DNA from: Tubulanus polymorphus
Taxonomy: Eukaryota; Nemertea; Palaeonemertea; Tubulaniformes; Tubulanidae
Reading direction: 5' to 3'
NCBI RefSeq assembly: GCF_964204645.1
Contig: NC_134029.1
Coordinates: 2,675,001-2,739,000, forward strand
DNA length: 64,000 nt
Under the pieces are notes generated by a model that saw only the letters and a list, made by a program, of their open reading frames with translations, was not told where the DNA came from and did not search any database. The position numbers and the translations under genes are program-made. Below are positions 4,201-47,874 of the stretch, in pieces (position 1 is the stretch's first letter; every line of letters starts with the position of its first letter).

Positions 4201-7200
4201 ATTGACTCATAATAGAATAATCATTGATATTTGTTCCATAATTTCCGTTCATCTTCATATCAAATTTCGTATCGATTATCATATCATCTATTTTCCCGTA
4301 AATGATCATTGGCCCTAAACTTTCTTATTAAAAGAATGCGAGGGTCGGAATTTTGTGCGAACTGAAGATTTCAAGGTCGACATTTTTCAGTTGCTCGTAA
4401 GAATTCCACATAATCGACGAAATAAAAAATCATTCGGTGGATGGTGAACGAATAGAAAGATGACATTGGTTCAAAATGTTTTTCTCTTATTTAAGAGTCA
4501 GGAGACAGAGCAAACAAATTGTTCATCCTTTATTTTTAAAGTACCAAATACGTTCGTCCTCGACTGGCAGTAATAATGAGAGACCATTAATGATAATTCT
4601 GACGTGGGACTAACTTGCATAATGATTCAGCTATTATACGATGAATTGGACGCATTAACAGTTTATTTATTTGATGATGAAGATCTGTGATATATTACTA
4701 TATAGTTGTCATATTAGAGACATTTCTAGACCACATCATTACGTCGTGCTGAGAATCACTGAAGTCCCTCAAACACTGAGTAAATCGAAATGTGTAACTT
4801 AGCAAACCGAACCGTGGCCGTAGATCAACATTGATGAAACACTGTGTAACGATAATGTAAAATCCAATACAAATGGAACAATTACAATGGAATGCTATTC
4901 ATTATTATATGAATAGATTATGTACATGACGACCCCACATTTGATGATATCCTAAGCTGGGCGTAGGTCGGCTACCAATATTGTGAAATTGTTCATTATC
5001 TTCTTCAACCTGAGATTTACAGTTGGCGTCCTTGTATAGCATCTATATATTCATCGTAAATTCGATACGATGAATTCAGAGCCACATATCCAAATAACAT
5101 ATCTAAACGTGTATTCACAAGGCTTTCCTATTCTCCGATGTTTTTATTTCTATTTCGTGCTGAAAGTCTGATTCGTTTGCGTTGCTACAAACAATCATCA
5201 AAACATCAGTCAGTCGTTGGAAAAAAATGCGAAACAAATTTAAAATGAAAAATTTCCCCTTACCGCCATTAGCGAGCTTTTTACCCCATCCTTCTAGACT
5301 TCAGATTGCCTTGTACTCGCTGAACACGAGATAAAGATCTCCTTTTTTATATTTTCAAAAAGGTGCAGACAAAAGACATTTAGAGCTATATCATGTTATA
5401 CGTGGAAATCGTATAATACATACAAGCACGAGATACTTGTCTTGTATTGCAACAAAAAGTCAGTTTGATAAAGAACAATGAGGATGTTTTGCCCTCCGCT
5501 GTAGGAGAGGAGTTATCTAATATATAAAATGTTTGTTTACAGTGTCGAGAGAACTTTAATAGATATATCAGATTCCATGTACCAGTGAGTGTTTGCCTTG
5601 TCTGCCGCTTCGTCAATATATTTCTGAGAAAAAAAAAATAAGAAAACCTTACTTTGAAAGTTGTAAGGCCCAATTTCACAGTCGGGCTTAGGCAAAGTAT
5701 TTCATCCGTAAGCAAACCGAGTCCACTTTGAACTGCTCTCTATAATGAAAATAATACTCGATAACGATTACGCCTTGTTGTCAGAGTTTGAGCTGCTATT
5801 TCAAATTTAACCACTAATAATTTTGTAATTTATGTGAAATGGATTAGGAAAAATATGTATACACAACTCATCCTGTATATATCCGCGTGGTAGACTTAAT
5901 GATATCAATTCGATTCATATCACTTACTGAATTCCTCAGTGCAAATTGTACCCCCCACTTTCCAGATGGATGCGAAATAGTTTTAGGGAAAAATTTGTTT
6001 AGTCTTTTAAAGAGGATCGTGTCTTAGCCCCCGCCGTATTTATAGAGCGAGTGAGAAGAGAAGCGGCCAATTTCCGGTGCGTTAGTTTGACGTATTGGAA
6101 AACGATAGTCTGAAGATCGATATTATCTATATTTCTGACAAATTTATCGATGTATCAATCGAACTTTGCAACTGGGGAAGCGAAATCGTTTCTTACAAGG
6201 ATAAATCTGATAGAAAATAAACTACTCGTCTTGATTCGACGGGCATTTATTGCGACCTTCACATTTTGGTCATGAATTTTTATTACACGGGAGCAATTTC
6301 GTAGATTTTGCACTTATTCGGGACAGTTGCAGCGGCAATAACATGAACCATAATCAAGCAAAACTTGATGAAAAAAAGAATCAGATGAAAATCGATTAAA
6401 TATGAGAAGTTAGTTTGACTCATCATGCATCGATATTACGAGGGCCATCAATCGCGATATCACGATAAATAAATCGTAAGTCCGTCATTAAAGAAAAAAA
6501 CATTTTTATTTCCAGGAAACACACCCAGTTTGCGGTAGTGTGTTGTATTTACATATTAGTAACAGCATTAAAGGTAAGTTCCGTTAGGGTTAACCGTGAT
6601 CAACTAATCATATCATCGTGTTATCTAACTTACAAATTATGAATCATTTATATGGCGTAGAACGGAACTCTGTTTGCGCTAAACAACAAATTCGTCTACT
6701 CTAAAGAATGTAGATATCAATTTCTATACGTAGGGCATCTATGGACAATCAGATGGACGATGGTCTGAATGGAAGGAATGGAGTAAATGTTCAAGGTCGT
6801 GTGGACTCGGTGTCCGAATGAGAATGCGAGAGTGTAACGACAAGGAAAGGTACCGCGTACCCAGCACCTAATTACCGTAGATAATCGCTTTTATACAATA
6901 TGTCTTACAGAACCAAATAAATTAAAAATGACATATCTCTAGTCTACAAGATGATATATATCTGATCTGAACAAGATCCCGTGTGGCTACGCTCCTGCGA
7001 GGAGAGAGGAATCGCGTCACTATCGCCACCCAGACGAATAGAGATATCTCCACTTCGATTCATATCAATAATGATAACAACAGCTTATCTAATATCTATT
7101 AGCAGTAAACAACACCGGGCCATATTTCACTGTCCTGCTGTGTCTTCACGCCCTGTACTGTGCGCAAACTGTTTCATTTTTCCGATGTGTTCGAAACTTT

Positions 7201-15100: not shown

Positions 15101-18100
15101 TTATTTGGCAGTAAAAGAACACGCGGATACGAACTGACTGGTTCTCGGTAGAAAAATAGTTATAACTATACATGATTATCCCTGATTAGAGACGATATAA
15201 TGATTTTTATAATTACGGTGAATACTTATATGCATATCAATCAATCGTAAGTCGTAATTTCGACGTGTGATTTTTTCTTGTATTCTGATCGTTTGATACA
15301 AATATCTAGTGAACTTGCTTCACTGTAAACTACTTTTACTACGATGTACTTAAGAGTTCAATAATTGGAGACCCTGAAAAACGAAACAAGCCCGTGTATC
15401 GAAGTGGCCAAAAGGTCAGATGTAATCGTGAATATCGTTGGTCAAATTCATATCGAAGTTATACTCAACGAGCCCAATTTCTCATAGTACATAACTATAT
15501 TATGATACTTGCTTCAGTCAACGATATAATGATTACAATGGAATCTGGCAATATGAGATAAGCCGTCCTTTTGACCACCTCATTGCTTGCCTCGTCGCGG
15601 ATTTGTTTCAAATGTGGCTTCTTTTTCTATTTAGAAAATAGGTTGCGACGGAGTGTTGGGTTCGAGCCTGACGTATGATAAGTGCGGTGTTTGCGGCGGT
15701 GATAGTAGCACGTGTAAAGTAGTATCTGGTATATTCATCCGCACACCTTTACCTTACGGTTACAACGAGATCGCTACTATACCGGCCGGCGCTTGTAAAC
15801 TCGTCATCAAAGAGACCAAAAACAGTCGTAACTATCTGGGTGAGTAATTAAAAACAAACACTCCAAGTTCGAGATTTGAAACTTTCGGGTAACTGTCCTG
15901 GCTAAGAGTGGACAGTTCCAACGACGACTATGAAGGATAAGAAAAACGTAGCTCGTATTGTAAGCAGGAATAAACGTGAAATCCGGTGTATATATATTTT
16001 TTTTGGTGGGGTTATGACGTCACACAATGATAGTGGATTTCAATATATACAAACGAACCACCGCGACAGGAACTGAGTGAATATTACAAACTGCCTCAGG
16101 TTATTTCCTCTGGTCTTTCGTATCATTTTTCCCTGTTTTTATTTTCCATGGTTTATTTCATTGCGCTTCACCTGTTCTCACCAGGAGATATCGCTGACAA
16201 GACGAAGAATGCGATTGTTGAAAATCCAAACTCTACCGGGGGTGGCATTCTTTCCGACCGAGTTATTTCATAAATAATGCATATATAATACGGATTGCGG
16301 AGAGCTTCGTGGGGGTTCATTTCAACCAATTATGTAACTATTAAAGCGACACTTAGTTGACAAAAATGTCTCAATGGAACGTGTAATTACATTACAAAGC
16401 CATATGCAAGTTTTTGCGAGTGATTTTAAAAAGAACTATTCCGATTGAAAATGCACATCACTCTGAATACAGTTGTAAGTGAGCATTTGGCTATCGAGTT
16501 AAATCATTAGGAATTGACTTATTCTAACTCAACTCTTTCTCACAACGGCGAAATCATGTCCAGGATAGAGTTAACCAGAGTTAAAATCCGTTCTTTTTCA
16601 ATGAGTTTACTCCGAGTCAAATCCTAACTCAGAACTCTCTTTGTAATTGGGTCCTGATGTCAACATCGATGTCGTTATTTCAGTACTGAAAAAGAAGAAT
16701 TCCGGACACTACATTCTGAATGGTAATTACGGTATTGATTGGAGTGGTGATTATAAGGCTGCCGGTACCGTGTTTAAATACGTCAGACCGGTCACGAAAA
16801 ACTCGGATAAAAATGAACACATAACAGCAAACGGTCCACTCACTGAACCCATCGTATTAGAGGTGTGTATACAACACATTACATCTTCAATACCTCGATA
16901 TAAAATCCAAATGGTAAATTAGTTAACAGATGCATTACCATTAGGAGCGTCACAAAGATATTCCACGGTTAATGAACAATGCCTCATCTTATCTGGTAAC
17001 ATCCTACGTAATGTGTATGAAAATACATTCATTACGGTTTCTCTGAAATGGAATAGATAATTCTCGAAACTATAAACCTTAGATATCATCAGTAATTGTG
17101 GGATTATACATTATTTTCTACACCTAGAATATGTCAATCCAACCACATATGTCAATTGTTCAACGCAGGTTCTTTATCAAGAGAAGAATTCTGGAATTGA
17201 GTATCAATATTCGATACCGGTTGTAGGAGCGGGTCGAGGACGTGTCAGTAGTTCTCAGCACAGGTATCGTTTCTCATATCTCGGCATCTCAATTTCTTAC
17301 ATATTTGACGTGTTTCTAATGTGCTCTGTGTATTGTTGTTAGGGTAGCGCCTGCAAATAATAATTATCTATCGACTGACACGGTGGAAAGACCAACACAT
17401 GGAAATCGAGATAGGAATCAAAATCGTGTCCCTGCACGAGGGACTGGACAGGGGATCGGACATGGGACTGGACGCGGGACTGGGCGAGGTACCGGACGCG
17501 GTACAGCACGAGGTATCGGACGCGGGACTGCACGAGGAACCGGACGCGGGAACAGGCGCAGACCTGGCAACTCTTCGCCACAGCGGCCGCAAGTCACCGG
17601 AGAGCTACCACCCGATCAACCGGTCGATTTGAGTAAGGTGTTCCAATGGAAGGTCCACGGATTTACAAAATGTTCAGCATCTTGTGGAGGAGGTTCGTAT
17701 GTATTCTTTTTGATAGGAAATTGTTAAACGAAAACAAAAATATTACGAATAATTTCCCACTTTGTTTGTGATAAAGGATACCAAAGATCTAATGTTTTGT
17801 GCGTTGATATAACTTCAATGGCCGTCGTAACGAATGTGAATTGTGATAGACACAAGAAACCGACGAGTCAAACAGTACCGTGTGCGAATGAACATTGTCC
17901 ACCAGAGTAAGTAAAGCCTAGGGATACCATCATAAAGATACCACCGTAAAGATCGTTTCAAAATATATAAAACTTGAAAAGGTCTTATCGTTGTATCTAG
18001 TAACAATCCACAATTTCGGCTGAACAGTGTGATGTGGTCAACTGCTAGTGGGTTTATTTTATACTGCGATGTTTTCTTTCTGAACACGTCAATGTGTATA

Positions 18101-21100
18101 TATATATATATGTTTATGTTTACTATTTGAAAGCTGGACGACTGGTAACTGGTCTCCGTGTAGTGTATCCTGTGGTAAAGGTCAGAAAAAACGACTGGTC
18201 GAATGTAAACAGAGGGTTTCACCGAAAATTACTTTCATGGTATCGGCGAATCAATGTCTCCACAAACAACGACCGTCGTCCACTGAATATTGTACACTAA
18301 CCGCGTGTTTCAAATGGAGAGCCGGACAATGGGGGAAGGTAAGTGGACACTGGATTAACAAATACAGGAATACAGCATGCATTTACAAAACAGCAGAATC
18401 TGTATTCGTTTATTTACGCTACACCTGAATTAGTTTCCCGATTGGAAAAACATTTACATTTACAACGAAACCCAGTCCTAATCATTCAATCTATTCAATT
18501 TCTGCCAGTGGAAAATAATAGTCTTACGTTATTTCTTCAATTAACTTCTTTCACATCACCGAATGCGATAATCATTTTACTACCGATGTTTTCTTTCACC
18601 TGCGTTTCTGCCAACTCAAAATTAATCTCGATTTCATTCTGAGAAAACTTTAACAAATACGAAAAGTTTGAATATTTGTTTTGAAGGCCAGGAATTTCAG
18701 TCGGTTGTTTTAGGTGCTAACAGTCGGCAGGAAGCGAATTGAAACAAATAGAGCCCCCGCTATTGAGAGAGAAATGTTCCCCATAATGGAAAACTAACGC
18801 GCGTTCAAACGTGAACGAATATAGATTTTTTACGTAATCGAACTATAATTTCTTCCAGATGTTCCGTTCGTTTCTTTTTCTCATCAATCACTTAAATCAA
18901 ATGTGAATAATTGAGTGCAACAACTAGATCCGAAATAAAAAGTTTGTCTTGTGCTCGATTGAGTCCCGAAATATTTCACCAACACTTCCAATTTTCGCAC
19001 CAAAAATGTACAAAATAAGGAGACCTTTTATATCGACGAATATTTCTTTTTTTGTATCGAGAAAAACTATACATAGACTGAGATATGTGTAAAAAAGAAT
19101 GCTATGAGAAATTTTGCCAACAAAAAACGAACGAACGTTTTTGGCACAGCTGCCAGAGATCAGTTGCACCTGTATCGTTTTAGTATATAATCCATCATTA
19201 CAGTAACTAGAGTTTACCTAACAACTGACAACAGCCGCAAATATAGAGAAACTACAAAACTCAGGGAGCAAAGAGTACTGTTTTTTACAGCATATTTCTC
19301 TTAGTTCCTCGATGTCATTGGTCTTTCTACAGCAAGGTGCAAATTTGAAATGATATTTATAGGAAAATCGGTATCAGTCATTCGGTCGAATTTTATTTCA
19401 GTCATTTTCAAATATTAAACAATTTGATGACATTACTGCGATCCGCGCTCGTTGCAAAAAGCTGGTTTTCCCGGTTAACAGCGACACCTTTCGGTCGGGA
19501 TAATTCTCGTACTACGACACTCGTCATTCTGAGATCGGGCGAGAATTTCACGATTCGATCGTTCAGTTCGTCGGCGACGCAAACGAATCCTCGACGATCG
19601 ATGCAGATTCCTTTCGGTCGGTTTAGATGACACGGTCCACCGTCGAGACGACCGATCTGAACTCCGCTACGATCAAACACCTTCACGCATGCGTCACCCG
19701 TCTCCGTGACGAACATCCGGCCTTTATCGTCCATCGCGATTCCCATTGGTTGGTTTAAATATTGAAATGGAGTCACGCGTTCACCGATCATAAACACGGC
19801 ATTGTTGCTGGTATCTGTGACGTATATGTGCCCTGTGAGATGGTCGATCAATGTGTCTGTTGGCTCTCTCAGATGATCGCCTTTAAATTCGCAATCAATT
19901 TGCGCTGATTCGGCCTCACTCGGACGAGATAGTATCAACACTCGTCTGTTTCCAGTATCAGCCACAATCAGAAATCCCAGACCGGCGGTTCGCGTGAATT
20001 TAGCGCTTCTCGGCCTATGAAACCCTCCTTCGATAGAGCACGTAGCTTCGTAAGCTGTTGTATTGATAATCTGGACTCTGTGATTGTACGTGTCCGCAAC
20101 GGATAAATCACCACAGTCATCCACATCGATGAACCAGGGATCGTTTAGTTGACAGGGTCCACTTCCAAATTCCAGAACCTGTGCCGACAATCCTGGGTAT
20201 TTGTGACACAAATCAGCCGTAGATTCAGTCATATTTCCACGAGACAGTTACAGTTCCTCCGTATGAAAAGAATGATTGTGCATACGTTGTATTTTATCGA
20301 TATTGCTGTGCTCGTAAATGTTTATGTCGCCAGGGTAGCAACCACTAGTCAAGAGACCATTCGACGCTATTCACTTTTAGTTTCATACAATTCAGTTCGC
20401 ATATAAAACGATTCATTAATCACGAACCTATCGTTCAATGACGTACGCCATATCGTTATATCTAAAGAACTGGGTAAAACAAGATCAAAGACATTATTTT
20501 GATGACGAAAAGATAACGGGTTTAAAAAATGTTATTCAACGTCTTAATACCGGATGCCGGGGCCAAGTTGCATAATCGAAACTTTAGTCGTAACCCTAAT
20601 GACCGAAGGTGTTAGATTGGATATAGAACTTAATTGATCTTATAGACTGGTCTTAAATCTAAGCATTTCCTGCGCAACTGGTATCCCACATAGTGTAAAC
20701 GTACTGTGAATTGAATATCCCAAATCAAAAATCAGAAATAGAAAATCAAAGAACTTATTGGGTTGTTTTTTTAAATCTTTAGTGTTCAGTATCGTGTGGC
20801 CGAGGTAAACAGAGGCGTGATATCGCCTGTGTGGATTCATACGGTAAACAAGTTCAAGATAATTACTGCGAAGGTGACAAACCGCACAACGAACAGAGAT
20901 GTCACAAGGGTTCCTGCGATAGAGACTGGATTCATACTGAATGGTCGAAAAAGGTAGGAATACCGAATCGAAACATTTGAAACATTGACAGAAATTATGG
21001 AATTCATTGTGAACAATTTTGTTATGTATTTTGTGTAGTGTTCGTCTGACTGTGGAGAAGGTGTTTACACTCGAAAAGTCATCTGTAGCGCTATTTCCAA

Positions 21101-35699: not shown

Positions 35700-42118
<6,419 letters not shown>

Positions 42119-44723
42119 ATGTATTCTCGTAATCTTATCCTTCTCAGCTTCGTCGTTTATTTCCATTCGACTTCAGCTTGTAAATGTGTACCACCAGCTA
42201 TAGAACAGGCTTGCACTTCGAATTTCAGTAAGTATCTAATTAGAATAGAAAGAGTACCAGATAGATTTAGTGTGAAAATGTTGATCGAGTAGAATTGTAT
42301 CGTGGTTGTTACAAAAACGTCCCTTTTTTCACAGGTTTTCTGTTAATATATCTATAAGTTTACTTTTCACTGTAATACCAACTACTTTTAAAAGCTGGTT
42401 CTGCTAAACAAATTCGTTCTAAAACTAGTTTTCGAAACACTCCTGAAATATTGAATTGAATTGTATATTGTATACTATCAATAAATTAACCTTACACTCT
42501 CTTACACTCTGTCAATACGTATGACAGGTTTTATACGTATATATATATATATACCTGAACTCGTACTTGGAATACAGTGTTATATACGTTACGCTTTTAA
42601 TAAGTGCGGCCAAAGTCGGATATAGCATAGTATAGTGCCTTGGCGTAGAGTTAATAAGTTGTGCGGTTAACGTATCAGCGCATTAATACATTGGCGCATG
42701 AATACATTGATAATTGGGTATTAACCGCGGCAAAGGAACAGTTCATTTACACGTTGACCGACGACTAGTGACAGTTGACTACTGTTGGTTGTTTGTTGGT
42801 TGGCCCAGTGGAGAGGTGATAGAGTGCATATTTCACCCGCTGGTTGACGGCCGACGGATGACACGATGCAATGTTGTCGCCAATGTATGTACAAGGATCG
42901 TGGCGACAGAGACGATAGAGTGTATAGACCTATATCATCCGCTGGTTGACGGTCGACGGATGACACGTCGCAATGTTGTCGCCAATGTATGTACAAGGAT
43001 CGTGGGTTGACTGGTTGACGGGTGACCACACAACACAAACAAACAAGAGAAGTAAATCTAAACCGAAACAGTAAACTATAAGAATCAGCTACGAAAGTTT
43101 CATTTTTGATTTTGAAAAAAGAGCCGTCACGTATCGACGTCGTTCTGTAGCAATGTGAACAATGCCATATTTCACCGTCCCCACAGTTGGTTTTTTGGAG
43201 GCGCATCTCACGTTGACAGTGCTGAAAATAAATAATGAATCTCCTGTGATTTTGAAGGCTCGACCGTGTTGAAACTAATATCAGAGAACTGGAATTGACT
43301 AAAGAAAAATAGAAATGCAATTTCTATTTTAAGTATGGGGTTTATCATGTGTTTGGTCACGTGGTGTGTTTGGTGTTTAAGGTTAATAGATCGTTAATAG
43401 TTAATTTGTTGGTTGGTAGATACGTCGACACGTTGGCACATGGAATGTTAATGACTGGCGATTTGAATGTGTCGACATGACAACTTTCTTTGGGATACAC
43501 ATAAACCGAAGAACTCAGTAAGCATACGCGAAGGAACTATACTATGCAATACCCTACTTGAGCCATAAGTGCTTTGTGTTCCAAACTGAAACGATGATGT
43601 CTACAAAATCCTTAGCGATCGTGGTCGTTATTTTGGCAATGACGATGGTTAAATCTATCGATAGTTGTTCGTCGTTGAGTGATATGTGTACTGCGAATTT
43701 CAGTAAGTAAATATCTGTTGTTATCGTATGATAACGGATAACTCTAGGGTATAAGATTGTGTGTGTTTTTTTGCCATTTACTATTGAGTTTATAGAAAAA
43801 GATTTGAATTTCTAAATCATAATCTAATATATCTCTCCCTGTATATTCACATTAATACCATTATCTTTGCAGCGATTCGAGTGAAAATTATATCCTCAAA
43901 TGGAACGGTCGATTCGAACCCACCATCAAGTGGTAATATCGTATATAATGTCAACCTTATTAGTGTATATAGGGTATGTAAAAGTTCACCTTTAATGTAT
44001 TCTTCAGACGCATTTGATAAAATATGCAAACGGTATATATCTAAACACTGAGTTGGACCCTGGATTCTAAAACGTTTTAGAATCCATGGTTAGACATTCC
44101 GAAAACAGTTTTTGAATCAAGGTCTCCAAAGCCAATTTTGATTAAACAACAACCATTCTAAGACCATTTCCAGACTAAAAAGAAAAAAACATTTAGTGCT
44201 CTTCTGGGGCTGGTTTTATCGATTGCTACGTATTATCTTGAATCCGGAATTAACTGAAAATGCATTGAGTTAATCCTCGGAGCAAAGTTAAACAGTCCCT
44301 GTTGATTTGACCTACAGTGCCCGATATTCATACCCGATTATAACTTTTTTCAGTGGCACAGCGACCACCCAAGAACGGTTAACACCATTTCAACACCCAG
44401 TTCAAGTGCCGCATGTGGAGTAAGATTGCCATTGGGTTCCGGCAAAATATTAATGGGTAAACATCTTATGTTCTTAACATAAAGTCGTATCTATACTAAT
44501 AAAATCGAGCCCGATAATTCGTTTTCTTTCCGTTTCAGGAGGTTTTTACAAGTCCCAAGCCCAGGTTCACTCGTGCTCCTACAAGGCTGATTGGTCAACA
44601 GAAGAGGAAACTGAAATCTATAAGACTCTTCAGAAATGTGGAGCCGACCTGAACAGATCAAAACTGACTTGGACCGTTTTTATCGCTCTCTTCGTTTGGA
44701 TAACGTTTTTGAACCAGAAATAG
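42119..44723 (+). CDS. TIMP: TIMP-like (netrin/NTR-fold) metalloproteinase inhibitor, first exon 1a
   Basis: Coding exons 42119-42227 (1a), 43873-43973, 44354-44456, 44539-44723; 498 nt, 165 residues, phases 1/0/1. Exon 1a gives a 20-residue signal peptide with a clear cleavage site (STSA|C), so the mature chain starts CKCVPPAIEQAC. Free N-terminal Cys in a CxCxP motif is the active ridge of TIMPs, which enters the metalloproteinase active site. Later blocks also fit the N-terminal TIMP domain: TIRVKIIS, YNVNLISVYR, TPSSSAACGV, KILMGG, VHSCSYKADWS and a final QKCG. That gives six cysteines, as needed for the three N-TIMP disulfides. The second TIMP domain is absent. Instead the chain ends in a hydrophobic stretch (WTVFIALFVWITF), suggesting a membrane or GPI anchor. 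A TIMP-related NTR protein without inhibitory activity is the alternative. Confidence 0.82.
42818..43005 (+). repeat. Two-copy tandem repeat between the two TIMP first exons
   Basis: Copies at 42818-42903 and 42914-43005 share GATAGAGTG at the start, the block GCTGGTTGACGG, and GCAATGTTGTCGCCAATGTA at the end. No coding meaning is apparent. Confidence 0.75.
43594..43702 (+). CDS. TIMP: Alternative first coding exon 1b of the TIMP-like gene
   Basis: A second signal-peptide exon 1.4 kb after exon 1a and only 170 bp before the shared exon 2. It is 109 nt like exon 1a, ends in phase 1, and the last codons and donor are nearly the same (TSNF and TANF, each before A|GTAAGT). It has two adjacent ATG codons, then a hydrophobic run (IVVVILAMTMV). 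The predicted mature start is about CSSLSDMC. It keeps the first and last N-terminal Cys but has Ser for the third-position Cys, no Pro, and is four residues shorter. It joins exon 2 in frame. No separate downstream exon set exists for exon 1a, so these look like alternative first exons of one gene. Confidence 0.72.
44061..44086. repeat. Perfect 26-bp palindrome
   Basis: Starts TGGATTCTAAAAC and continues as its exact reverse complement, with no loop. It lies in the intron between exons 2 and 3 of the TIMP-like gene. Confidence 0.9.
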
Positions 44724-45179: not shown

Positions 45180-45566
45180 CCTCTCCCTCTCCCTCTCCCT
45201 CTCCCTCTCCCTCTCCCTCTCCCTCTCCCTCTCCCTCTCCCTCTCCCTCTCCCTCTCCCTCTCCCTCTCCCTCTCCCTCTCCCTCTCCCTCTCCCTCTCC
45301 CTCTCCCTCTCCCTCTCCCTCTCCCTCTCCCTCTCCCTCTCCCTCTCCCTCTCCCTCTCCCTCTCCCTCTCCCTCTCCCTCTCCCTCTCCCTCTCCCTCT
45401 CCCTCTCCCTCTCCCTCTCCCTCTCCCTCTCCCTCTCCCTCTCCCTCTCCCTCTCCCTCTCCCTCTCCCTCTCCCTCTCCCTCTCCCTCTCCCTCTCCCT
45501 CTCCCTCTCCCTCTCCCTCTCCCTCTCCCTAACCCTCTCCCTCTCCCTCTCCCTCTCCCTCTCCCT
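45180..45566 (+). repeat. (CCCTCT)n hexamer array with telomere-type variants
   Basis: About 64 units of a 6-bp repeat, 460 bp after the TIMP-like gene. Two units read CCCTAA, one inside (about 45527-45532) and one at the right edge, matching the C-strand of the TTAGGG telomere repeat. Confidence 0.93.
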
Positions 45567-47874
45567 AAAACGTTCAAGACTTCCTACCGAAAACCGGGGA
45601 TCGATAATAATTACTTGTGAGTATAAATCACGACCCATCTACAATGATATAATCACAGAACAGCCAGTAATTTGCTGAAGGGAATATTGGCAAAATAATC
45701 CGCCGTATGAGATACAAAACTGGTTCCATTCATCAGGAAAATGCTTCGGACCAGAGCAAAAGCAATTTCAAGACCTTTTTGCGCATATCCGTGTTATTGA
45801 ATGGGCCGTAAGGAATGATAAAAACGCAGATACAGATAAAAAATAATTGAATAAGATCGTATTGAGTTACCAATTATACAACAGAATATTCCATCTAAGA
45901 ATGAATTTCTGAAAAAAAAGATGTCTGCGCAACATCCATAAGACTTGACCGTTTGTCACGTGTAAACCATCGACCAATCGATAGTAACACGATATGACTC
46001 CTGGTCGCACGTGACTGGTGGTTCGGGTAACCCCTAATACTAATTACCGGCACGTATCGCGCGTCAACTGTAAGATAATAGAGTCGCATCTGTTCTATAT
46101 ACAGTGTGGTCGTACTAATTAACGCTATACCTCGATAAGACAATAGCGGCTACTGTTACACGTATCAAATATCACATGCTTTCTCTGCATCTATATACGT
46201 ATGATGGTTATTCTCTTTATGAACGTGGGAACGAAGGTCACCGAAACTGCCTAGAATTATCAATACTTTCATATAAAACTTGAATTTTCATTAACGCGGT
46301 ATCCATGTCCGCTGATGTGACGACAATCTCCCAAATTGAATGAGAACCAAACAACGTTTAACGTTAGGAATGCTCGACTGTCACAAACGTGATTTCGGTG
46401 TTTGAATTTCGACTTTTTGAACAAGCAAGCTAAATATTCGCTTATACTTCTATGATATACTACAACTGACTAATCAAGAAGGTGAAGTTTGATCTGCAGA
46501 CAGTTTTCGATCGATCCGCGCGATGTTCTAAATGTGTGGTTTGTGTGTATAGTTCATATCTCGCTATATTCGTGTGACATTGTAACATGGTATTACAGTG
46601 TCAATGGAGACGGGGATTATACGCCGGATTATCTCCGCCTAAGCGGATTAACTGTAATGAGATTTGCTAATATGTTTGATGTGTCACCAATGCGACAGTG
46701 CACGGCATTGTCTCTATACAGTCGGGCTCAGTAACACAGTACCCCCATTAGCACCGATCCAGATCCCGAGTTCAGACAAAAAATCGAACTTCTTAAAAGA
46801 GTTTCATTCTTTTGATTTTCAGATCAAATGGAAATTAAACTGATCGAACACCCGGCTAGGTAACCGTCTAAATCGATTCGCCCTCCGGGTTTTTTCCTGA
46901 TTTGATATGCGATGTTATTACCACGGTGAACTCCTTTTGAACCCGGTGACATCCACGAGACGAGATCCCACAGTTCTACACACGTATATACATCAAAACT
47001 CGCAATAAGCTAAGATACCAAAATTTGTAAAATAAGACAATGAGTCGTAACACGTCTACATGCGACAAGTAAAGTGAAGGTCGACTAAGTTGAGTGAAAT
47101 GTATTCGGGGGTAGTTAACAACAGCCCCCCCCCTGCTCTTGTACTGCACTCTACCAGAAACATGTTTTGATGATTCATAAGGATATAGAGAGGATAGGGG
47201 ATACACGCGTAAGAAAGAGGAAGGCTAATCCCATCCAGTTTTACTCAACCCGATTTTCCGCTGATAATCTGGTAACGGTGATGTTCTGGCCAATTAAATC
47301 ATGTCCTTGGTTGACTCGGAAAATTGCTATTTCTTCGTCTTGATGAGTCAGCGATTTTACAATTGACACACAACACACATATTATCCCCCCCTCGCGAAT
47401 ATCTCTTGATTACTTGTTCTTTTGTCATCACTGGTTTGTCAGTGACAGACTAAAATCAGAATTCTGGCCTGTCGTTTTCCCTAATTTTTGTTGTATTTTT
47501 ATCACACGTAGAATCTTCCAGCGAACACGTAAATACACGCTATCGCTCAAAACAATCGTACAAAATCAATTTCTCTATCAAATCGTATTTGTATCCATTC
47601 GTTCGACAAAAGTTAGATTTTTTCAAATGAAATATAAACCACGCGTAAACTCCGGAGATATTGCGAATCGAAAATCTATGGAAGCGATGATAAATATAAA
47701 CCAAATTTTTCGATTAAGAATGAAAATAATGTATTGATACGAACGATTTCAGGGTCCTATTCTCCTCAGTTTGGTGAAAAACAAGTGAATCAAACGAATA
47801 AAAACTATACAGATTTATGTGCAGTAGTTTTATTTTTGCAGTAGTTTTATTCATTTGATGCTCATGTATTTCAC

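Follow-up and report, generated by a model that had tools for sequence, protein, structure and literature searches.

A candidate TIMP gene with two alternative first exons, a hydrophobic C-terminal tail, and a transposon ahead of one first exon

In TIMPs, Cys1 binds the protease zinc through its free amino group and its carbonyl, the S1' pocket receives residue 2, and the segment Cys1-Pro5 forms the ridge (PMC3679795). Relatives with an altered N terminus have been described as separate genes. The hookworm NTR proteins AceES-2 and Ad-TIMP-1 lack the second Cys of the CxC motif; AceES-2 shows no MMP inhibition, and none is predicted for Ad-TIMP-1 (PMC3679795). Similarly, the scallop protein Sbp8-1, a secreted byssus protein encoded by its own gene, has the TIMP fold, gave no inhibition in the assay used, and is polymerized by free cysteines, having two extra ones at the C-terminal side (PMC5975577). 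"Pseudo TIMPs" are supposed to originate through changes at the N terminus, and alternative splicing has been suggested for echinoderm TIMP isoforms, for which the cited passages describe no first-exon switch (PMC10755359). N-domain-only TIMPs occur in nematodes and Hydra, and the cited passages describe neither a first-exon pair nor a membrane tail for them (PMC9409782, PMC3679795). Placement of a TIMP on the membrane is known from GPI-anchored TIMP-1, which was engineered (PMC9409782). In agrin, also an extracellular protein, an alternative first exon alters the N terminus, there by removing the whole NtA domain and making a type II membrane protein (PMC4210653).

Literature searches, whose coverage excluded most subscription papers, showed among the papers listed no first-exon or promoter switch within one TIMP gene, in agreement with the earlier note on this DNA, which knew of none. 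Two papers that matched on alternative first exons were, judging by title, about something else. A search of the GPI, single-domain, and NTR literature also found none. Among the matches listed, no natural membrane-anchored TIMP was recognized by title, and nothing useful was obtained on N-terminal extension of TIMP-2. GPI-anchored TIMP-1 has reportedly been engineered in a further study.

The gene considered here lies within positions 2,675,001-2,739,000 of contig C5, a stretch of 64 kb (the window), in an assembly of 267.8 Mb and 77 contigs. Its gene structures and families point to an animal, and mitochondrial COX1 has no match in the assembly. The new part would be the putative switch inside one gene, the alternative start lying within the gene of an inhibitor-like protein, given that relatives of TIMPs lacking the second cysteine are already known as separate genes. 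We consider it probable (roughly 0.6) that two alternative first exons are in working use in this TIMP gene, or were until lately, and a working toggle between its two forms is plausible.

Exon structure and copy number

The features assigned to the gene, all on the plus strand, are as follows.

42119-42227, plus strand: exon 1a, 109 nt, from the ATG to a GTAAGT donor in phase 1; signal peptide, then the mature start CKCVPPAIEQACTSNF
43594-43702, plus strand: exon 1b, 109 nt, phase 1 with a GTAAGT donor; signal peptide plus IDSCSSLSDMCTANF, without CxC and without Pro
43873-43973, plus strand: exon 2, common to both forms, 101 nt, placed by splice sites and frame
44354-44456, plus strand: exon 3, common to both forms, 103 nt, containing TPSSSAACGV
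44539-44723, plus strand: exon 4, common to both forms, 185 nt including the stop; last two NTR cysteines and a hydrophobic tail
44661-44720 (approximate), plus strand: C-terminal tail NRSKLTWTVFIALFVWITFLNQK, hydropathy peak at residues about 147-163

Exons 2-4 have AG/GT borders and a single frame that is open down to the stop, and splicing of either first exon to them yields an open frame of 165 residues. Exon 1b, which has two adjacent ATGs and carries no stop, frameshift, or splice-site loss, ends 170 nt ahead of exon 2. Upstream of the 1a ATG there is an in-frame stop at a distance of 27 nt, and upstream of the 1b ATG one at 75 nt; each of the two ATGs is thus the opening of its frame. 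Because no acceptor is required by 1b as a first exon, transcripts started at 1a would be expected to skip it. Acceptor-like AGs with scores similar to those of real acceptors occur upstream of 1b, and a leader could thus be spliced onto it. Joining of exon 1a to 1b through the acceptor at 43186, the only one followed, gave a frame that stops at residue 65.

The genome search, which ranks best candidates only, placed exons 1a, 2, 3, and 4 at one locus and 1b likewise at one. No second exon set was found in the window or in the 267.8-Mb assembly. The proposal that a single downstream set serves both first exons was therefore borne out, and the check that it had called for, namely for independent downstream exons belonging to 1a elsewhere, found none. 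Only one further TIMP was found, a full two-domain protein on contig C3 (about 6.2-10.3 kb, minus strand) with the mature start CSC, which scores 117.8 bits across the whole Pfam model. It lies near the start of a 27.8-Mb contig and adjoins a large GGGAGA-type repeat. In an exon-by-exon family search, this gene alone exceeded the threshold and the window gene was missed; TIMPs with short exons may escape such a search. A third candidate, at C1:30252256, reached an E value of only 0.5 and was rejected, the open frames there being unlike TIMP by eye. A search of the genome-contig collection gave no related species, and no tRNA or Rfam match was obtained in the window.

Several other features were observed in the neighborhood. 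Thrombospondin type 1 repeats of the ADAMTS type are encoded at 17320-18428 on the plus strand (59.9 bits for the piece 18084-18428), so that an ADAMTS-like gene precedes the TIMP gene by ∼24 kb. TIMP-3 has ADAMTSs among its targets. An exon of an NHL-repeat protein (94.4 bits) is found at 19408-20247 on the minus strand. The TIMP gene is flanked by long, nearly pure arrays, (AGC)n and (TCTCCC)n, at 39086-39412 and 45180-45567.

Predicted products of the two starts

The products starting in exons 1a and 1b (forms A and B) scored 45.3 and 37.5 bits, respectively, against Pfam PF00965 (TIMP), where the cut-off is 23.1. Among the PDB matches listed (7 for form A at E values up to 1 and 9 for form B at E values up to 5), five TIMP sequences, chains of TIMP-3 and TIMP-2, were the only convincing ones. 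The TIMP identity claimed by the earlier note was thus upheld. Form A aligned with the vertebrate TIMP-2 and TIMP-3 N-domains (PDB 2tmp and 3cki) from mature residue 1, with the CxC, the C13 region, the SSxxCG loop, and the Cys equivalent to C99 all matched, whereas form B aligned from residue 11 only. Unlike TIMP-2 and TIMP-3, the window gene has no C-terminal TIMP domain, a hydrophobic tail, two first exons, and Lys at position 2. When the C-domain of the other TIMP of this genome was compared with the window extended by 10 kb, nothing relevant was found (best E 1.5).

For exon 1a, the -3,-1 rule gives A20|C21 as the best of four passing sites for signal cleavage, which would release the CKCVP start that had been read from this exon. 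Form A has six cysteines (21, 23, 32, 91, 117, and 138), and by homology the Cys within TPSSSAACGV of exon 3 would be the partner of Cys1, as in TIMPs. Form A thereby fits a single-domain TIMP with an inhibitor-like N terminus. Position 2 is Lys, an unusual residue there, rather than Ser/Thr, which makes the inhibitor strength of form A uncertain. Lys at this position is held to be tolerated on the strength of Ac-TMP-2, in an assay that the same paper doubts (PMC3679795).

The Cys-X-Cys start and the ridge proline are both absent from form B, as had been stated. Several cleavage sites pass the -3,-1 rule: S24|C25 would free a Cys, giving the Cys start proposed in the earlier note, and S21|I22, which also passes, would leave IDS ahead of that Cys. 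The count of five cysteines (25, 32, 91, 117, and 138) was also right; the further claim that the second Cys is the one lost, so that the partner of the third-position Cys is left unpaired, is less certain, as the lost residue may be either C1 or C3. Given that CxC and Pro are missing, and that the Cys would also be blocked if cleavage occurred at S21|I22, form B should not inhibit in the manner of TIMPs. Its odd cysteine could allow pairing between molecules, by analogy with Sbp8-1.

Past the last NTR cysteine, both forms finish in ADLNRSKLTWTVFIALFVWITFLNQK, and the frame stops at 44723 after the hydrophobic tail. Small residues, a short polar spacer, and ∼16 hydrophobic residues follow one another in this tail, the hydrophobic run coming after NRSK and ending in NQK. 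Such a pattern looks like a GPI attachment signal or a short membrane anchor, and the NQK end would count somewhat against GPI. With one N-TIMP domain followed by a hydrophobic C-terminal tail, any inhibitor made from this gene would be membrane-bound, here by a genome-encoded tail rather than an engineered one.

Transposon insertion ahead of exon 1b

The interval between the two first exons contains a mobile element.

42600-42607, plus strand: left target-site duplication ATAAGTGC, 8 bp
42608-43564, no strand assigned: copy of a non-autonomous DNA transposon, 957 bp, between exons 1a and 1b
43565-43572, plus strand: right target-site duplication ATAAGTGC, 8 bp, an exact match to the left one

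The element has 66-nt terminal inverted repeats (76% complementary), exists in many copies, and is bounded by the 8-bp duplication, and is therefore a TIR DNA transposon. Besides itself, the stretch 42700-43060 of the window has 40 matching places in the genome; identity is 90-94% in many of them, and some of the matches are partial. Both ends of the element are common to all 12 copies fetched, 10 of them near full length and 2 interrupted mid-element, and the exact 8-bp duplication was recognized by eye in this copy and in 8 of the 10 aligned others. Its interior contains a 75-nt tandem pair (42829-42903 and 42931-43005, 93% alike). Delivery of 1b by the transposon was rejected, since the 1b sequence is single in the genome and all 12 copies end before it.

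Only 29 nt separate the end of the element from the 1b ATG, so the 1b promoter would have been broken, moved, or replaced. The strongest alternative to the main reading is that 1b was formerly a working alternative first exon that was killed by insertion of the transposon between its promoter and its ATG, with the 1a form alone made now, at least in this haplotype. This outcome has a substantial minority share of the probability. It is favored by the closeness of the insertion, with its exact 8-bp duplication, and by the 22 plus-strand ATGs within the element, which would stand ahead of 1b if transcription started upstream of it. In the empty site, a TATATA at -48 from the 1b ATG would put the insertion about where transcription would start, a weak pointer given that TATAWA occurs seven times in the 229-nt stretch. 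Compared with the majority sequence of 10 others, the window copy shows 35 differences over 954 positions (3.7%), the highest of the 11 rows compared (1.7-3.5% for the others), and at this divergence 1b might be intact by lag alone. Indeed, an unused 1b would have remained intact since the insertion in 14,275 of 20,000 simulated runs, so its present intactness is no proof of present use. Against this alternative stand the undamaged frame and splice site of 1b, and transposons often provide promoters.

Origin of exon 1b and proposed scheme

The likeness between the first exons is concentrated at their ends, where 21 of 23 positions (the last 16 exon and first 7 intron bases) are identical. The earlier note had described two exons of equal length and phase with near-identical ends and donor, and so they proved. 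A 21-mer pattern of the exon end, allowed up to 3 mismatches, matched the window three times where 0.03 matches were expected: at 1a, at 1b, and, with 3 mismatches, at a minus-strand site (5923-5943). Over the first 88 nt, 1a and 1b share 28 of 88 positions (32%), about the level of chance, as do their 100-nt flanks (30/100 upstream and 28/100 downstream). A duplicated common promoter received no support from a comparison of the 219 nt before 1a with the 229-nt empty-site stretch before 1b, the score of 14 being matched by equally high scores in 260 of 500 shuffles.

Both strands of the 64 kb were scanned for an ATG with an open phase-1 frame of 79-139 nt, a GTAAG/GTGAG donor, and a hydrophobic core. 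Three sites were returned, all on the plus strand: 1a once, and 1b twice owing to its two adjacent ATGs. These two were the only signal-peptide frames with a phase-1 donor in the scan. When 1a was allowed to drift neutrally to 34% identity, in a simulation without indels that assumes descent of 1b from 1a, the ATG, open frame, GT, and hydrophobic core were kept together in 17 of 200,000 copies, and in 0 of 200,000 when a GTRAG donor was demanded. Together with the uniqueness of the scan result, this near-zero survival makes 1b look retained rather than fortuitous, and the simulation makes a neutral relic without past function unlikely. We infer that exon 1b was long maintained as coding sequence, and the likeliest history of the pair would be that exon 1 was duplicated and the copies then diverged over a long time.

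In some invertebrates TIMPs are commonly duplicated in tandem, according to the cited part of one study (PMC10755359), and 1b might accordingly begin another gene, or be left over from a neighboring TIMP copy that has lost its remaining exons, never being joined to exon 2. We regard this as improbable, given that 1b shares its length, phase, and CT(S/A)NF end with 1a, lies 170 nt ahead of exon 2, and that no further matching exons were found in the genome. A chance open frame, for which the low identity to 1a across the first 88 nt is the only argument, is very improbable and was rejected on the 21-mer pattern, the exon scan that 1a and 1b alone pass, and the identity of the exon ends.

In the favored reading of a working alternative-first-exon gene, a single-copy gene would encode a short, one-domain, membrane-anchored TIMP, its two first coding exons having arisen from a duplicated exon 1 and then diverged. 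The 1a product, with its free N-terminal Cys, its CKCVP ridge, and three disulfides, would fit a zinc-binding inhibitor, judging from the family. Transcripts begun before 1b would place the same domain on the membrane with neither CxC nor the proline of the ridge, and one of its cysteines would be unpaired; their product may have a scaffolding role, form a disulfide-linked partner, or act as a receptor-type form. The transposon would part 1b from its old upstream DNA, leaving the 1b output of this haplotype reduced, lost, or driven by the element. The core of the original proposal, two first exons on one TIMP body, stands, and the transposon ahead of 1b and the hydrophobic tail had been overlooked. 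The fullest version of the scheme is advanced only tentatively: that two membrane-tethered TIMP forms, differing solely in the N-terminal inhibitory ridge, are made by choice of first exon, and that the promoter of the non-inhibitory one was recently captured or retuned by a transposon.

The inhibitory and the non-inhibitory (signaling or structural) roles of TIMPs are hard to separate. If the scheme is correct, both forms of one body obtained by first-exon choice would constitute a natural separation-of-function pair, and the transposon would be a natural test of the need for the second form. A genome-encoded tail on a TIMP would, moreover, position an inhibitor beside membrane proteases, as has been engineered for human TIMP-1.
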